A DNA stretch of 61,847 nucleotides, taken from the IMG/VR virus record IMGVR_UViG_3300027499_000001, positions 1 to 61,847 of that record. One strand, 5' to 3'. Under the pieces are notes generated by a model that made no database searches, had not been told where the DNA came from, and worked only from the letters and a program-made list of their open reading frames with translations. The stretch's first letter is position 1; each line of letters starts with the position of its first letter. This DNA comes from a virus. Shown one piece after another: positions 2,602 through 6,581 of this stretch. A program made the translations under genes and the position numbers.

Positions 2602-2892
2602 ATGCTCTACGTAACTATGACCGACAAATTTATGTCTGGTTGGGGCGCTGCCCAATGCAAGACCAATAAATTGATTATTGAATGCGAGACTTGGCAGCAA
2701 GCGGAACAAATTGAACGGGCAGCGCATAGCCGTCCCGAGATGCGTTACATCAACATCCGCACCACTAAACCGCGATATGGGGCCAATGCTGTCGAATCTT
2801 GGAAGTGTGGCGAAACTTACAAGGCCAAAAATCTAACGGTTAACGAATTCATGCGGGAGTATGGATATATCCCGTCTCGCGAACTACGTTAA
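2602..2892 (+). CDS. Conserved phage protein of unknown function, first gene of early plus operon
   Basis: A 96-residue protein with a strong ribosome site (AGGAG, 6 bases before ATG). The N-terminal pattern TDKFMSGWGAA followed by NKL and a central YINIRTTKP resembles a small protein common in many tailed phages. No catalytic motif is evident. As the first gene of the operon it is probably expressed early. Function unknown. Confidence 0.85.
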   Translation: MLYVTMTDKFMSGWGAAQCKTNKLIIECETWQQAEQIERAAHSRPEMRYINIRTTKPRYGANAVESWKCGETYKAKNLTVNEFMREYGYIPSRELR

Positions 2893-2903
2893 AGAGGTAC
2901 GCC

Positions 2904-3176
2904 ATGAATTTTGAAACTGTCAAAGAAGGGCCCCTTATGGGGCAATTGGTTCGCCTTCCATGTAATGGGCCTTCCGTACGGGTTCATGAGTTGGAGTGGC
3001 AAAAAAGGGGCCTGTCCTATACCGCTAGTGGCTATGGGGCAAAGATACCTACACGCTACATGGTGCGAACCATTGACCAAAAATGGCGAAGAGTGTATTG
3101 CGCCATTTTTTCTAACATTGGAACAACGTACGTTGTTCATGGAAACCAGAAAACAATTGTAGAGGTGAACCTATGA
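2904..3176 (+). CDS. Conserved phage protein of unknown function
   Basis: A 90-residue protein with GAGG 6 bases before the ATG. A central GYGAKIPT and a WRRVYCAIFSNIGT segment resemble a small hypothetical protein found in phages of several host groups. The alternative overlapping frame starting at 2911 is less convincing because this frame overlaps the next start by 4 bases, the rule in this operon. Function unknown. Confidence 0.8.
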   Translation: MNFETVKEGPLMGQLVRLPCNGPSVRVHELEWQKRGLSYTASGYGAKIPTRYMVRTIDQKWRRVYCAIFSNIGTTYVVHGNQKTIVEVNL

Positions 3177-3370
3177 GATTCGCATTTATACCTAAGGCCC
3201 AATACAAAATTGGCCAAATCATTCAAGTACACGGGAAAACCGTACGTGTGGAAAGTTACACACACACGGGAAGAAACGTAATTGTGCACACGGTTGATGC
3301 GCCCAAATTTGAACGCATAGTGTGTATCTGTATTGAACCTAACCGATTCATTCAAGGAGTGACATTATGA
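3173..3370 (+). CDS. Small protein of unknown function
   Basis: 65 residues, basic and beta-rich in appearance. It begins at an ATGA overlap with the previous stop, with GAGG about 6 bases upstream. No family is recognised. Tight coupling on both sides supports it as real. Confidence 0.75.
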   Translation: MRFAFIPKAQYKIGQIIQVHGKTVRVESYTHTGRNVIVHTVDAPKFERIVCICIEPNRFIQGVTL

Positions 3371-3627
3371 AAAACATTTTTTATATCGAAGTGACAGACA
3401 CTTTTGGAGACGAAGCAAATTATTCATGGGTAACCCGTTTCAAGGTTCACGCGAAGAGTGAATTAGGGGCTATTCGGAAAGTCTCACGGGAAATGGGCCT
3501 TAGGTTTCGCAAAGACTTTGACACGGGAGACTTGTCAAAGTATAGGGCCTTGAATGCGTGTATTTGTGCGTTTCTATCGGGTTACGAAGACGAAGAAACG
3601 CGGTTTTTTAACGTCAAATCAATTTGA
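3367..3627 (+). CDS. Conserved phage protein of unknown function
   Basis: 86 residues, started at an ATGA overlap with AGGAG 7 bases upstream. The pattern NYSWVTRFKVHAKSELGAIRKV is typical of a small uncharacterised phage family whose members carry a beta strand, then a helix rich in Ala and Ile. No enzyme motif. Confidence 0.8.
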   Translation: MKNIFYIEVTDTFGDEANYSWVTRFKVHAKSELGAIRKVSREMGLRFRKDFDTGDLSKYRALNACICAFLSGYEDEETRFFNVKSI

Positions 3628-3637
3628 GGGGCGCACC

Positions 3638-4114
3638 ATGCGAACAATCGAAACCACAATTTACGCCTTTGATGAATTGCCGGGAGGGGCAAAAGAAAAG
3701 GCTATAGAAAAAATGCGGGAAATAACTAAATACCCTTGGTTTACTGAATGCAAAGACAGTCTAAGGGCTTTTTGTGATGAATTTAACGTAAAAGTTACAG
3801 ACTATTGCCTGTCGAATGACTATCGCGCATTTGTCTCTACAGACGCAACAACAAGACACTTTAGAGGGGTAAAACTGTCTTCATTTGACAGGGAAGCAAT
3901 GCCGACAGGGTTTTGCTTTGATTGTGACCTACGTTACACCTTTTTTAATGAATTCAAAAGGACAGGAGACGCAAATCACGCCTTTGAGACTGCAATTGAA
4001 GCATTTGTGTCAACAGTGTCAAAGGACATTGACTACTACTTTAGTGATGAAGCAATTGTCGAATCAATACGGGCAAATGACTATGAATTTACGGAAGAAG
4101 GAGCATTGACATGA
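3638..4114 (+). CDS. Conserved phage protein with DELPGGAKEKAIEK motif
   Basis: 158 residues. The ATG at 3638 was chosen over upstream codons because GAGGGG lies directly before it and the protein then begins with the conserved segment YAFDELPGGAKEKAIEKMRE. That helix is the hallmark of a widespread uncharacterised phage protein. The rest is mixed alpha/beta with many acidic and aromatic residues. It overlaps the next gene by 4 bases. Function unknown. Confidence 0.85.
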   Translation: MRTIETTIYAFDELPGGAKEKAIEKMREITKYPWFTECKDSLRAFCDEFNVKVTDYCLSNDYRAFVSTDATTRHFRGVKLSSFDREAMPTGFCFDCDLRYTFFNEFKRTGDANHAFETAIEAFVSTVSKDIDYYFSDEAIVESIRANDYEFTEEGALT

Positions 4115-4461
4115 ATGCCGCATACACCATTCAAGACCAAGAACAACTCGCGTATCTAACGGGAGACGTTCGCACGGCTGACCTATTGGCCCAAATTGTG
4201 GAATTGGAAGAAAAGGTTAGAGTACTTGAAGACCAAATTGAAGACACTATGACGCTAGAAGAGTGGGAAAAACGTAATGGGCCCGCGTATGACTATGTAC
4301 AGTTTTTTCAGGAGTGTTTCGAGTGTCTATCAGGACATTATCCCTGTCCAAGTGTGACAAGTGACTATGACAAGTCAATTGTCTTTGATGCAATTGAACG
4401 GGGAGAAGAGGCCAAAAATTGCGCCACTGATGAATCTCGTTCATATGGGCCAAGAGGTTGA
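4111..4461 (+). CDS. Small acidic protein with short coiled coil, unknown function
   Basis: 116 residues. A Leu/Glu-rich helix near residues 24-48 (LLAQIVELEEKVRVLEDQIE) has heptad spacing and could dimerise. The C-terminal half has three Cys residues. It starts at an ATGA overlap with AAGGAG 7 bases upstream. No family is recognised. Confidence 0.8.
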   Translation: MNAAYTIQDQEQLAYLTGDVRTADLLAQIVELEEKVRVLEDQIEDTMTLEEWEKRNGPAYDYVQFFQECFECLSGHYPCPSVTSDYDKSIVFDAIERGEEAKNCATDESRSYGPRG

Positions 4462-4465
4462 CACC

Positions 4466-4696
4466 ATGCGTAAAACAACCATTGACAATCTTTGTGAGAC
4501 TGTTAACACACGTAATAGTGTGTCATACCCTATGAAGGGGTACACGTACTTTGCCGATATACGGGGAGACGGAAGAAACATCAGGCGTGTCTACGTCATA
4601 ACGAATGACAAAGGGGGTGTAACTGCTTGTCATAACGGGAAAACCTATCGTCATACCGCAAAAAACTTACGGGAATTATTGGAGAAGACAGCATGA
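4466..4696 (+). CDS. Small protein of unknown function
   Basis: 76 residues. The start at 4466 has an AGAGG ribosome site; an upstream in-frame ATG at 4361 would lie inside the preceding gene. It contains a beta-rich middle (YTYFADIRGDGRNIRRVYVI) and ends in EKTA, because its stop is part of the recurring GGAGAnnACAGCATGA cassette. Function unknown. Confidence 0.75.
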   Translation: MRKTTIDNLCETVNTRNSVSYPMKGYTYFADIRGDGRNIRRVYVITNDKGGVTACHNGKTYRHTAKNLRELLEKTA

Positions 4697-4989
4697 TAAA
4701 AATTGAAAAATTTAATGTCCGCATTGTCAATACGGGAGACAAGTACGGGCGCAAAGATTGTCTTACAAATGACAGCGCCCCAATGGTGGAGTTCTATGAC
4801 AGCCGCTATGACTTCCCTGACTTTATGGGAAGGGGGCAATTTGTATCTAGATACTATGTTTCTACCCTGACAGAGAATGGGGGATACGGAAGGGGGCTTT
4901 GCCTTGATGGAGGTGTCCCTGAATGGTCAGTGTCTGCTGACGGTATGAAACAGGTTTTGGAATACATTCAATTAGGGGATACAGCATGA
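4693..4989 (+). CDS. Conserved phage protein of unknown function
   Basis: 98 residues. Features are a KYGRKDCLTND segment, a VEFYDSRYDF segment and a Gly-rich YGRGLCLDGGVPEWSVSADGM stretch, together typical of an uncharacterised protein shared by many phages. Start and stop are both in the ATGA overlap cassette. It ends in GDTA. Confidence 0.8.
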   Translation: MIKIEKFNVRIVNTGDKYGRKDCLTNDSAPMVEFYDSRYDFPDFMGRGQFVSRYYVSTLTENGGYGRGLCLDGGVPEWSVSADGMKQVLEYIQLGDTA

Positions 4990-5189
4990 CCTACTTCTTA
5001 TTTTCAGATCACGGAACATGGCATAAAGAGGTCTTAGCGACTACATGGCGGGAGGCCTTACGTCAGGCTAGAGTTAAATTTGGTATTGGCGGGAAACTGC
5101 GTATATGCCGCTATATCAATTGCGAAAGCCGGGATTATCACCTTGACGGGACTAGCTACACATTTTCATTAAGAAAGGTTACATCATGA
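4986..5189 (+). CDS. Small protein of unknown function
   Basis: 67 residues, basic (several Arg and Lys) with a helical segment TWREALRQARVKFGI. The start is in the overlap cassette (GGGGATACAGCATGA). No recognised family. Confidence 0.75.
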   Translation: MTYFLFSDHGTWHKEVLATTWREALRQARVKFGIGGKLRICRYINCESRDYHLDGTSYTFSLRKVTS

Positions 5190-5368
5190 AACAAGAATGG
5201 ATTAACGCACTATACCAAATGCGAGATGCAGGGTTTCTTGTGGTTATCTGGAGTCCTGAAGAACTTCAATATGTCGATAGCAGACACATTGAAGACACTC
5301 TGATTGAACGCGGTAATGACATGATTGAGCAACTCGCGCTGCGCGAACAACGGGGAGAAACAGCATGA
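5186..5368 (+). CDS. Small acidic protein of unknown function
   Basis: 60 residues, with a hydrophobic strand (AGFLVVIWS) then acidic helices. Start overlaps the previous stop (ATGA), with AAAGG upstream. It ends in RGETA because of the downstream junction cassette. Confidence 0.75.
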   Translation: MKQEWINALYQMRDAGFLVVIWSPEELQYVDSRHIEDTLIERGNDMIEQLALREQRGETA

Positions 5369-5565
5369 ACTTAAAAGATGATGATTATGTGTTGGAAGAG
5401 GGAGCAGCATGGTTTGACGTTGAGGGCTTTTCTGTCCGCATACTGTCTGTCAATGAGGGCTTATGGATAGCTGTTTATAAAAATGGGGAAGAGATGGAAG
5501 ACCCTGTTGCAAGCACTTTTGCCTACAATGAAGAGGTGTCAGTTGATAAAGGGGAAACAGCATGA
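5365..5565 (+). CDS. Small acidic protein of unknown function
   Basis: 66 residues, strongly acidic, ending in KGETA. The start is in the cassette GGGGAGAAACAGCATGA. No family is recognised. Highly acidic early phage proteins are sometimes inhibitors or DNA mimics, but nothing specific is visible here. Confidence 0.75.
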   Translation: MNLKDDDYVLEEGAAWFDVEGFSVRILSVNEGLWIAVYKNGEEMEDPVASTFAYNEEVSVDKGETA

Positions 5566-5708
5566 AATATTACAAGCACACCCTCACTATGCGTGAACAG
5601 TTCACTCTGGAACGCAGACAGAAGCGGGCACAAGCCGCCTTTGACTTCATGGTGGCAATTCTGACTACCATCTTCATGTACATCTTGACTATCTGGGCCT
5701 TGTCATGA
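5562..5708 (+). CDS. 48-residue single-pass membrane peptide
   Basis: Short gene starting in the cassette GGGGAAACAGCATGA. The first half is charged (MREQFTLERRQKR). The second half is a membrane-spanning stretch (FMVAILTTIFMYILTIWAL). The positive-inside pattern suggests the N-terminus stays in the cytoplasm. It overlaps the next gene by 4 bases. Confidence 0.7.
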   Translation: MKYYKHTLTMREQFTLERRQKRAQAAFDFMVAILTTIFMYILTIWALS

Positions 5709-5878
5709 CCGAATCAGAACTAATCAATCTTGGCTACCGCTACGAAACAGCCAGGGGGCCCCGTGCCCTAAGGTTGTGGATGACCTTTCACGAAAGTTTA
5801 AAGGGGTTGCAGTCGCAGAAGCGCGAAGACTATGTGCGCCTTTTTGAACAAGGCCGTAAGGAAGGACGGAGTAAATGA
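5705..5878 (+). CDS. 57-residue basic protein of unknown function
   Basis: Begins at an ATGA overlap with no ribosome site of its own, so it is likely translated by coupling. It is helical and basic, ending in EQGRKEGRSK. The stop is shared with the next start. Confidence 0.65.
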   Translation: MTESELINLGYRYETARGPRALRLWMTFHESLKGLQSQKREDYVRLFEQGRKEGRSK

Positions 5879-6054
5879 AAGTACAAGACCTACTCGCTGC
5901 ATTGAGTGCATTGCCCCTTGATGCGAATGTATTTGTTTGGAGTGCAGGCAATAGGCTTGAACTCATCAATGTGGACAATTCGTTTTTGAATGATGAGTTC
6001 CCGTTCGTTGACCTTAACACTGAAGAGGTGTTTAAACAAGGAGAGACAGCATGA
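5875..6054 (+). CDS. 59-residue acidic protein of unknown function
   Basis: Starts at an ATGA overlap with AAGGACGGAG upstream. The N-terminus (KVQDLLAALSALPLDANVFV) resembles small phage and bacterial proteins in which a helix is followed by a strand. It ends in QGETA because of the junction cassette. Confidence 0.7.
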   Translation: MKVQDLLAALSALPLDANVFVWSAGNRLELINVDNSFLNDEFPFVDLNTEEVFKQGETA

Positions 6055-6224
6055 GTAAATACAAAGTTGAAGTGGTGATGTCCTATTGGCAGACCATCGA
6101 GGTGGAGGCCTCAAGCAAAGAAGAGGCGGGGGCCACGGCCCTTGACTGGTTCGACCCAACCCGAGCCTGTGTGCAGTGTGAGGGCGATGTTTGCGACATT
6201 GAACTGATTGAAGAGACAGCATGA
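6051..6224 (+). CDS. 57-residue acidic protein, paralogue of the next gene
   Basis: The pattern 'KYKVEVVMSYWQTIEVEASSKEEA' (strand, strand, helix) is repeated in the following protein, so the two look like a diverged tandem duplication. The start is in the cassette GGAGAGACAGCATGA. Function unknown. Confidence 0.7.
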   Translation: MSKYKVEVVMSYWQTIEVEASSKEEAGATALDWFDPTRACVQCEGDVCDIELIEETA

Positions 6225-6400
6225 AAACTTACCAGATCGAATTGAAGCGCACCTCCTACATCAACCTCACCATTGAGGCCGAGAATGAGGATGAGGCCGA
6301 GGCTTTGGCTTGGAAGCAGGTTGACCAAGACTACTACCGGGATGATGGGGCATGGGACATTGAGTCCATCGAAATAGACACGGAGGCCAACCGTGTTTGA
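6221..6400 (+). CDS. 59-residue acidic protein, paralogue of the previous gene
   Basis: It shares the layout 'YxIExK...SYxxxTIEAENEDEAEALA' with the preceding protein. This beta-beta-alpha pattern with EAxxxxEA is common in small phage proteins. Start is the ATGA overlap with AAGAGACAGC upstream. Confidence 0.7.
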   Translation: MKTYQIELKRTSYINLTIEAENEDEAEALAWKQVDQDYYRDDGAWDIESIEIDTEANRV

Positions 6401-6581
6401 GGTGCAGACCCGATTCATTTATGGGTGGGAAAACGTGTGGACTGAGGACGAAAAGGAATTGACGTTTTCTACTGCCCTACAAGCGCAACAGGGAATTGAC
6501 GACCACTTGCTTGAATGCTCCCGCGCGGGAATAGCCGTAGACCGTAGCGAATTACGCATTAAGCCCGTAATTAAGCAGTAG
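6393..6581 (+). CDS. 62-residue protein of unknown function, last gene of plus operon
   Basis: Starts at GTG (6393), chosen because GGAGG lies 6 bases upstream and the overlap with the preceding gene is 8 bases. The sequence 'FEVQTRFIYGWENVW...FSTALQAQQGIDDHL' is a strand-helix type small phage protein. A terminator follows 27 bases later. Confidence 0.75.
   Translation: MFEVQTRFIYGWENVWTEDEKELTFSTALQAQQGIDDHLLECSRAGIAVDRSELRIKPVIKQ

Follow-up and report, generated by a model that had tools for sequence, protein, structure and literature searches.

Organization of the locus

The DNA analysed here, hereafter the window, is a virus record from IMG/VR, 61,847 bases in length. It contains matches to phage primase, helicase and DNA polymerase. 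Its portal protein has 72% identity to the portal of DSL-LC04, a sequenced phage for which Gammaproteobacteria are recorded as host and lake water as source. An operon of 17 small genes (48–158 aa), delimited by gene calling, extends on the plus strand from 2602 to 6581 and is putatively early, as judged from its position and the small size of its genes. Most of its proteins have no known family in family searches, and a DNA search of the operon against 50,697 phage records, DSL-LC04 included, gave no match. An Rfam search of the window returned no match, and promoter-like and terminator-like sites are not above those in shuffled sequences. Tandem repeats occur at 1–327 (a 54-base unit present 2.3 times and 15-base units present 3.7 and 4.3 times), where the record may have been cut within a repeat-rich gene, and at 2235–2369 (ACCATGC present 4.9 times and a 21-base GAACCGCGAACCGGGAGACGC unit present 2.1 times), just upstream of the operon, between it and an opposite-strand ORF at 551–2056.

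Twelve genes of the operon begin on the stop codon of the preceding gene through a four-base ATGA overlap. Overlaps of this kind with a Shine–Dalgarno run upstream, by which translationally coupled stop–start overlaps are recognized, are found in the operon, and its junctions are predicted to act as translation-coupling sites. At six of the 12 overlaps the same word, ACAGCATGA, recurs (at 4688, 4981, 5360, 5557, 6046 and 6216), each copy being the four-base stop–start overlap of two small ORFs. The genes that start there are designated, as all genes below, by their first base: 4693, 4986, 5365, 5562, 6051 and 6221. All on the plus strand, the six ACAGC junctions lie at 4682–4696 (junction 1, GAGAAGACAGCATGA), 4975–4989 (junction 2, GGGGATACAGCATGA), 5354–5368 (junction 3, GGAGAAACAGCATGA), 5551–5565 (junction 4, GGGGAAACAGCATGA), 6040–6054 (junction 5, GGAGAGACAGCATGA) and 6210–6224 (junction 6, GAAGAGACAGCATGA). 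Their invariant part is ACAGCATGA; the other four differ from GGGGAnACAGCATGA, found exactly at junctions 2 and 4 only, by one or two mismatches in the Shine–Dalgarno part, and no two of the six share a string longer than 13 bases, a length reached by 5365/5562 and by 6051/6221.

The remaining six ATGA overlaps, at the starts of genes 3173, 3367, 4111, 5186, 5705 and 5875, do not carry ACAGC. The first three are upstream of the six copies, while the last three lie among them, with the words ACATC (5186), TTGTC (5705) and GTAAA (5875). Since these overlaps of the same operon use other spacers, the ACAGC spacer is not required for the overlap. An earlier note on this DNA had described at least six consecutive and nearly identical junctions: the repeat is real and concerns half of the overlaps, but the copies are not consecutive and only two match GGGGAnACAGCATGA exactly. 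The same note had the genes ending in Glu/Lys-Thr-Ala or Asp-Thr-Ala, and the upstream genes do end, in order, in EKTA, GDTA, GETA, GETA, GETA and EETA.

Recurrence of the ACAGC junction

On the two strands of the window, ACAGCATGA is present in 8 copies, against 0.61 expected and a maximum of 3 in 100 shuffles. As a background, 120 unrelated viral loci (1.10 Mb) were drawn by an arbitrary 14-base pattern. None of their 179 distinct ATGA junctions bearing a Shine–Dalgarno run contains ACAGC; the comparison of 6/12 with 0/179 gives p = 1.5e-8 (Fisher), the junctions of one operon not being independent draws. Identical junction words on one record strand reach a maximum of 2 in these loci, in 3 of the 120. 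Among 829 record strands, which are not independent as some near-copies (e.g. L227/L230 and L259/L260) are retained, the window operon tops the count of identical junction words, its own near-copies having been dropped. In bacteria, where the ribosome site of lacZ is similar to the ACAGC junction, GGRGANACAGCATGA occurs 4 times in 94 genomes from the class of a Gammaproteobacteria MAG, which may not be the class of the host, against 1 occurrence of the reversed control; the 62-kb window alone contains 4 occurrences.

The uniformity beyond chance that had been noticed from the letters is thus upheld by the excess of ACAGCATGA and by its absence from the 179 unrelated junctions. The latter result, together with the 4 matches in the 94 genomes (whose class may differ from that of the host), argues against the objection, foreseen in the earlier note, that this is just a common ribosome site. 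A further objection, that relatives have varied junctions, is true of DSL-LC04, in which the operon is absent, the coding strand has no ACAGCATGA over the 30.3 kb covered, and a small-gene operon of its own has varied junctions; it is false for L284 and for the other arrays described below. The repeated junction of the operon was not seen in 80 portal-relative loci.

Gene content in close relatives

Record L284 (6,252 bases) is ∼97% identical to the window operon in the best shared stretches (92–99%), and the alignment allows the two to be compared gene by gene. The 98-aa gene 4693 (4693–4989) is missing in L284 exactly between two ACAGCATGA copies: the left copy, in junction 1, which forms the left edge of the missing cassette, runs directly into the right copy, in junction 2. 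The next gene, of 67 aa (4986–5189), is retained, and is followed by a variant junction (5175–5189, ending in ACATCATGA) that forms the left edge of a second missing cassette, the 60-aa gene at 5186–5368; here, ACATCATGAA runs into ACAGCATGAA, at junction 3. The 66-aa gene at 5365–5565 is retained. Junction 4, at its end, is the site of an extra gene in L284 (91 aa, L284 2822–3097), which lies between two ACAGCATGAA copies. The ∼90 bases that follow the extra gene, corresponding to the 5′ part of the 48-aa gene at 5562–5708, are more diverged from the window than the remainder of that gene, which suggests an imported block.

Further to the right, the 57-aa gene at 5705–5878, with no ACAGC at either flanking junction, is retained in L284. 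The 59-aa gene at 5875–6054 is reduced (L284 3407–3448) to a 13-codon remnant, MKVQDLIKQGETA, which retains the tail KQGETA and so preserves the ribosome-site tail for the next gene. Between junctions 5 and 6, the 57-aa gene at 6051–6224, weakly DpnD/PcfM-like, is swapped in L284 for a different gene, which ends in a junction of another kind. Junction 6 leads into the 59-aa gene at 6221–6400, which is weakly ChaB-like and DpnD/PcfM-like. A different gene also stands at the head of the operon in L284 (window 2602–2892; L284 299–625), the breaks falling on the ATG and close to the stop, where there is no ACAGC. L285, from another metagenome, agrees with L284 wherever it is covered, for both losses and for the extra gene. 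Altogether, the six ACAGC junctions all border a difference in gene content between the window and L284, versus 3 of the 11 other starts (2602, 2904 and 5186; Fisher 0.0068), or 4 of 11 if 5875 is counted (Fisher 0.017).

Arrays and gene order in other phages

Homologues of gene 4693 occur in 78 viral loci, 47 of which were tabulated, and many of them end in ACAGCATGA with differing right-hand genes. Where the gene on the left keeps its position but the one on its right changes, the same 9-mer is conserved in 48 of 79 ACAGC cases, versus 44 of 221 for other ATGA words. The junction also occurs in L218, L220, L221, L222 and L283, whose portal proteins are 41–44% identical to that of the window: each has between two and five ACAGC junctions, with gene tails like KAQEQTA, and L283 differs from L220 by one additional 44-aa gene located between AGGAGCARACAGCATGA copies.

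Loci found through gene 6221 contain exact GGAGAGACAGCATGA arrays, with four copies in a row in L432 (the same array being present in L433 and L434) and three copies each in L431 and L448. Comparison of L437 with L432 shows a single-gene difference between two exact copies of the 15-base GGAGAGACAGCATGA and a three-gene difference at GGAGARACAGCATG. Order changes as well, since the cassette MRYTVTITF comes after MKTYQ in L431 and before MKTYQ in L432. Parts of the window itself are held in common with these loci: its DNA is shared over 6038–6214 with L432, over 6212–6373 with L431, over 6039–6313 with L436–L438 and over 4986–5192 with L448/L449, so that the shared stretches of genes 6051, 6221 and 4986 begin at a junction or a few bases from it. 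The 15-mer of junction 5 is identical to that of the L431, L432 and L448 arrays. Presence or absence of a single gene at repeats is seen in the window/L284, L437/L432 and L220/L283 comparisons.

Other words recur in the same manner: ACATC three times in a row in L428, after genes ending in GETS, AACAC three times in L210 and AGCAA three times in L379. In a separate analysis by raw offset, L272 and L265 were seen to differ by a 210-base indel with an exact 20-base flanking repeat, AATATAAACAACGGAGGAAA; repeat lengths at breakpoints obtained by raw offset are unreliable, as internal gaps shift the register.

Shared 3′ tails

Genes with unlike bodies and at least 21 of 24 identical tail bases form 71 pairs in 15 groups among 1,625 ATGA junctions bearing a Shine–Dalgarno run (376 records, the pattern-chosen loci retained and the portal loci and, to some extent, exact or near copies of one phage left out). 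Of two control segments, one internal to the genes gives 6 pairs (3 groups) and one following the start gives 30 pairs (9 groups). In one group, window gene 5875 and a gene of L431 have the 3′ tail in common, their bodies being unlike; the largest group (16 members, from the pattern-chosen loci) is apparently one gene family plus one unlike gene. In the ADAMLKAREA, KLKEKNT and AIRARG groups the peptide is constant despite synonymous changes, and these tails may be real protein motifs rather than relics of recombination. In L210, L224, L289, L439, L459, L475 and L428, unlike small genes end in AKLKEKNT or something close to it, and the tail DNA includes a ribosome site ahead of ATGA; ADAMLKAREA, or a near variant, ends unlike small genes in L087, L210, L240, L289 and L427, with mostly synonymous differences.

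For tails in -TA*, the threonine codon is ACA in 69 of 77 cases, as compared with 52 of 164 in gene bodies (pattern-chosen loci excluded), and the constraint there consequently acts on nucleotides. Within records, the copies of a recurrent word resemble one another in the preceding 10 bases more than they resemble other junctions in 17 of 18 records (0.65 vs 0.42). The window shows hardly any such difference, with a likeness over the 10 bases before the spacer of 0.49 among ACAGC copies and of 0.44 to other junctions.

Turnover at ACAGC and at other junctions

Exact or near copies of the same phage (L206, L285, L426, L430 and others) were dropped from most of the following counts, to differing extents, and the adjacency and recurrence sets retain near-copies (e.g. 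L227/L230 and L259/L260), so that their counts are not independent. In the 4693/3638 loci, adjacency between related records is broken in 0.64 of comparisons across ACAGC junctions versus 0.37 across other ATGA junctions of the same loci (p = 0.0012, within-locus permutation). With a Shine–Dalgarno filter the values are 0.62 and 0.39 (p = 0.03), and with this filter and the window and L284 removed p rises to 0.27. A first form of the test on these loci had given p = 3.5e-5, a signal that weakened or vanished under within-locus permutation and with a larger set. The pattern-chosen loci show the opposite trend (0.40 broken for ACAGC vs 0.60 for other words), partly because they were selected for sharing that junction.

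For ACAGC, lability accompanies recurrence. Where ACAGC recurs in a record, the broken fraction is 0.74, versus 0.41 for the remaining ATGA junctions of those records (p = 0.0002; 39 junctions, 15 record strands). Singleton ACAGC junctions are not labile (0.35 vs 0.52), and no excess is seen for other recurrent words (0.42 vs 0.44). Collapsed to lineages, ACAGC is higher in 4 of 7, equal in 2 and lower in 1 (p = 0.06). Recurrence accompanies turnover, most strongly in the window's own lineage, and the independent lineages are few.

Events were also considered irrespective of the word. Among 58 distinct gene-size indels, in a set that retains L206 and L285, the stretch over which the two alignments overlap at the break contains ATGA in 33 and ACAGCATGA in 4, 2 of the 4 being the window or L206 versus L284. 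The presence of ATGA at indel breaks means that the breaks are at gene starts, which selection alone could give. Coupled gain or loss, in which two coupled genes are neighbours in one record but have one to three coupled genes between them elsewhere, was found in 46 distinct events in a set without the portal loci and the random loci. The junctions flanking these events (45 with controls) are no more alike than other Shine–Dalgarno-bearing junctions of the same record, either in identity (0.44 vs 0.41, p = 0.15) or in exact run (2.0 vs 1.1, p = 0.36), which indicates that the repeat is not needed for most single-gene turnover. Clear repeats are seen in a minority of the events (window/L284, L283, L218, L432, L126 and a few more). 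In ACAGC arrays, the breaks fall at the repeats.

The proposal that genes move as cassettes with this junction is supported by L284 and L285, which lack two window genes and have one extra, cut exactly at ATGA junctions. Capture or loss of genes at a common junction, of which capture had been proposed in the earlier note, is supported directly by the window–L284 comparison, by three other phage comparisons and by the homologues of gene 4693, but not as a general rule, the 46 events showing that the repeat is not generally required.

Possible mechanism and alternative explanations

The comparisons show the ACAGC junction to be a cassette border. On balance it seems likely, if by no wide measure assured, that the predicted coupling site at the 3′ end of a small gene doubles as a boundary for the exchange of single genes, probably by short-homology recombination between its copies; for ACAGC arrays, recombination between ACAGC copies as the driver of exchange would be the best reading of the alignments. 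The 3′ end of a small gene would supply the gene that follows with a Shine–Dalgarno run and a five-base spacer; as the ATG of that gene forms ATGA with the stop, translation of the two would be coupled. At this junction, single genes, each with its own tail, are gained, lost, replaced and reordered, as the comparisons show. The copies, as direct repeats of 9–15 bp in the same frame, could recombine within a genome or between co-infecting phages, and such recombination would remove or add one gene without disturbing the genes on either side or their coupling. The same word would then recur as a result of the movement of cassettes from a common pool of genes. The enzyme is assumed to be one of general or annealing recombination, from phage or host; family searches of the window found no member of the RecT, ERF or YqaJ families.

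A possible explanation of another kind, to which limited weight is given, is that selection for translation acts alone: GGAGAnACAGC-ATGA would be a favoured coupling signal in the hosts, illegitimate recombination followed by selection would operate at any gene border, and the word would be convergent. The unlike flanking junctions of most coupled gain and loss events fit this explanation, as does the recurrence of ACAGC across lineages down to 41% portal identity, and selection on the nucleotides of the ribosome site would also yield the threonine codon bias. A favoured signal is nevertheless hard to reconcile with 0 ACAGC in 179 unrelated phage junctions and with 4 matches versus 1 for the reversed control in the 94 bacterial genomes, which may not be of the host's class. 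Other phages reuse other words alike (ACATC in L428, AACAC in L210, AGCAA in L379), the labile ACAGC copies are the recurrent ones and not the singletons, and the changes of order and the exact 15-bp flanks in L431, L432 and L437 also speak against convergence. A tag at the protein level, formed by the conserved C-terminal peptide (e.g. GETA) and entailing the DNA identity, is improbable: the constant peptides and synonymous variation of the ADAMLKAREA, AIRARG and KLKEKNT groups are what a tag would give, but the threonine of -TA* tails is nearly always ACA (69/77 vs 52/164 in bodies), and junctions of this type are also found after genes with other ends, TS and NT among them.

Tandem duplication, in which the genes would be diverged paralogues with inherited ends, is very improbable; genes 6051 and 6221 are both weakly DpnD/PcfM-like, but the remaining proteins match different families or none and visibly differ, and the 71 tail-sharing pairs have, by construction of the test, unlike bodies. 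A site-specific cassette system, e.g. an integron or an attC cluster, is hardly credible. Single genes arrayed with a site at every 3′ end would indeed fit it, and attC clusters without integrase are reported in virulent phages (excerpt of PMC9892861), but Phage_integrase (PF00589) was found in 0 of 1 in the window, against 14 of 14 in the control, and four-base gene overlaps, as judged from the sequence, would leave no intergenic room for an attC hairpin. Short-homology recombination between junction copies remains the preferred explanation for the ACAGC arrays.

Relation to known systems and significance

The PeSL of T4-type phages are promoter and stem-loop elements located between genes. 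These mobile regulatory cassettes resemble the present arrays in that a repeated element lies among small genes and is proposed to aid modular shuffling; unlike PeSL, the genes overlap here, and promoter-like and terminator-like sites are not above shuffles. The lambdoid boundary sequences are likewise short conserved borders of modules with a proposed role in exchange (Susskind and Botstein 1978; Clark et al. 2001, both as cited in an excerpt of PMC3029335), whereas here the border is within coding sequence, is the stop–start overlap itself, and delimits one gene per module. In Cluster K mycobacteriophages, Start-Associated Sequences, based on the 13-bp word GGGATAGGAGCCC, are explained by their authors through translation, the excerpt considered making no claim that genes move at this word (PMC3203893). 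They share with the window a repeated AGGAG-bearing word just upstream of the starts of many non-structural genes of different families, while the letters of the window junction differ from GGGATAGGAGCCC.

The closest precedent for ACAGC junctions as cassette borders, in the excerpt of PMC3029335 considered, is the indel of Island3 gene 68 relative to Brujita in Cluster I mycobacteriophages, for which the authors infer recombination between like 3′ ends. There too, one small gene is present or absent and the DNA of its 3′ end resembles that of the upstream neighbour. That case is one event with repeats of ∼50 bp; here, the repeats are of 9–15 bp, contain a ribosome site and an ATGA overlap, follow one another along an operon, occur in several lineages and with several words, and are accompanied by reordering. 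In the open-licence literature, at the level of titles and abstract openings, no earlier description of recurring ATGA junctions as cassette borders was found.

It has long been asked whether the mosaicism of phages is steered by short boundary sequences or results from random exchange filtered by selection. In this operon a boundary word is present, recurrent, well placed and coincident with the ribosome site, which makes the question directly testable in one operon and in populations. The finding also suggests that arrays of accessory genes in phages may be located by their tails instead of by homology. A broader view, put forward tentatively, is that of an integrase-free cassette system in lake-phage pools, in which a common ribosome-site tail would serve both as expression signal and as exchange homology, each pool having its own tail word (ACAGC/GETA, ACATC/GETS and AACAC/KEKNT). 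If so, any gene with the right tail could be inserted, removed or reordered, and the tail word of a pool would define which phages exchange genes.
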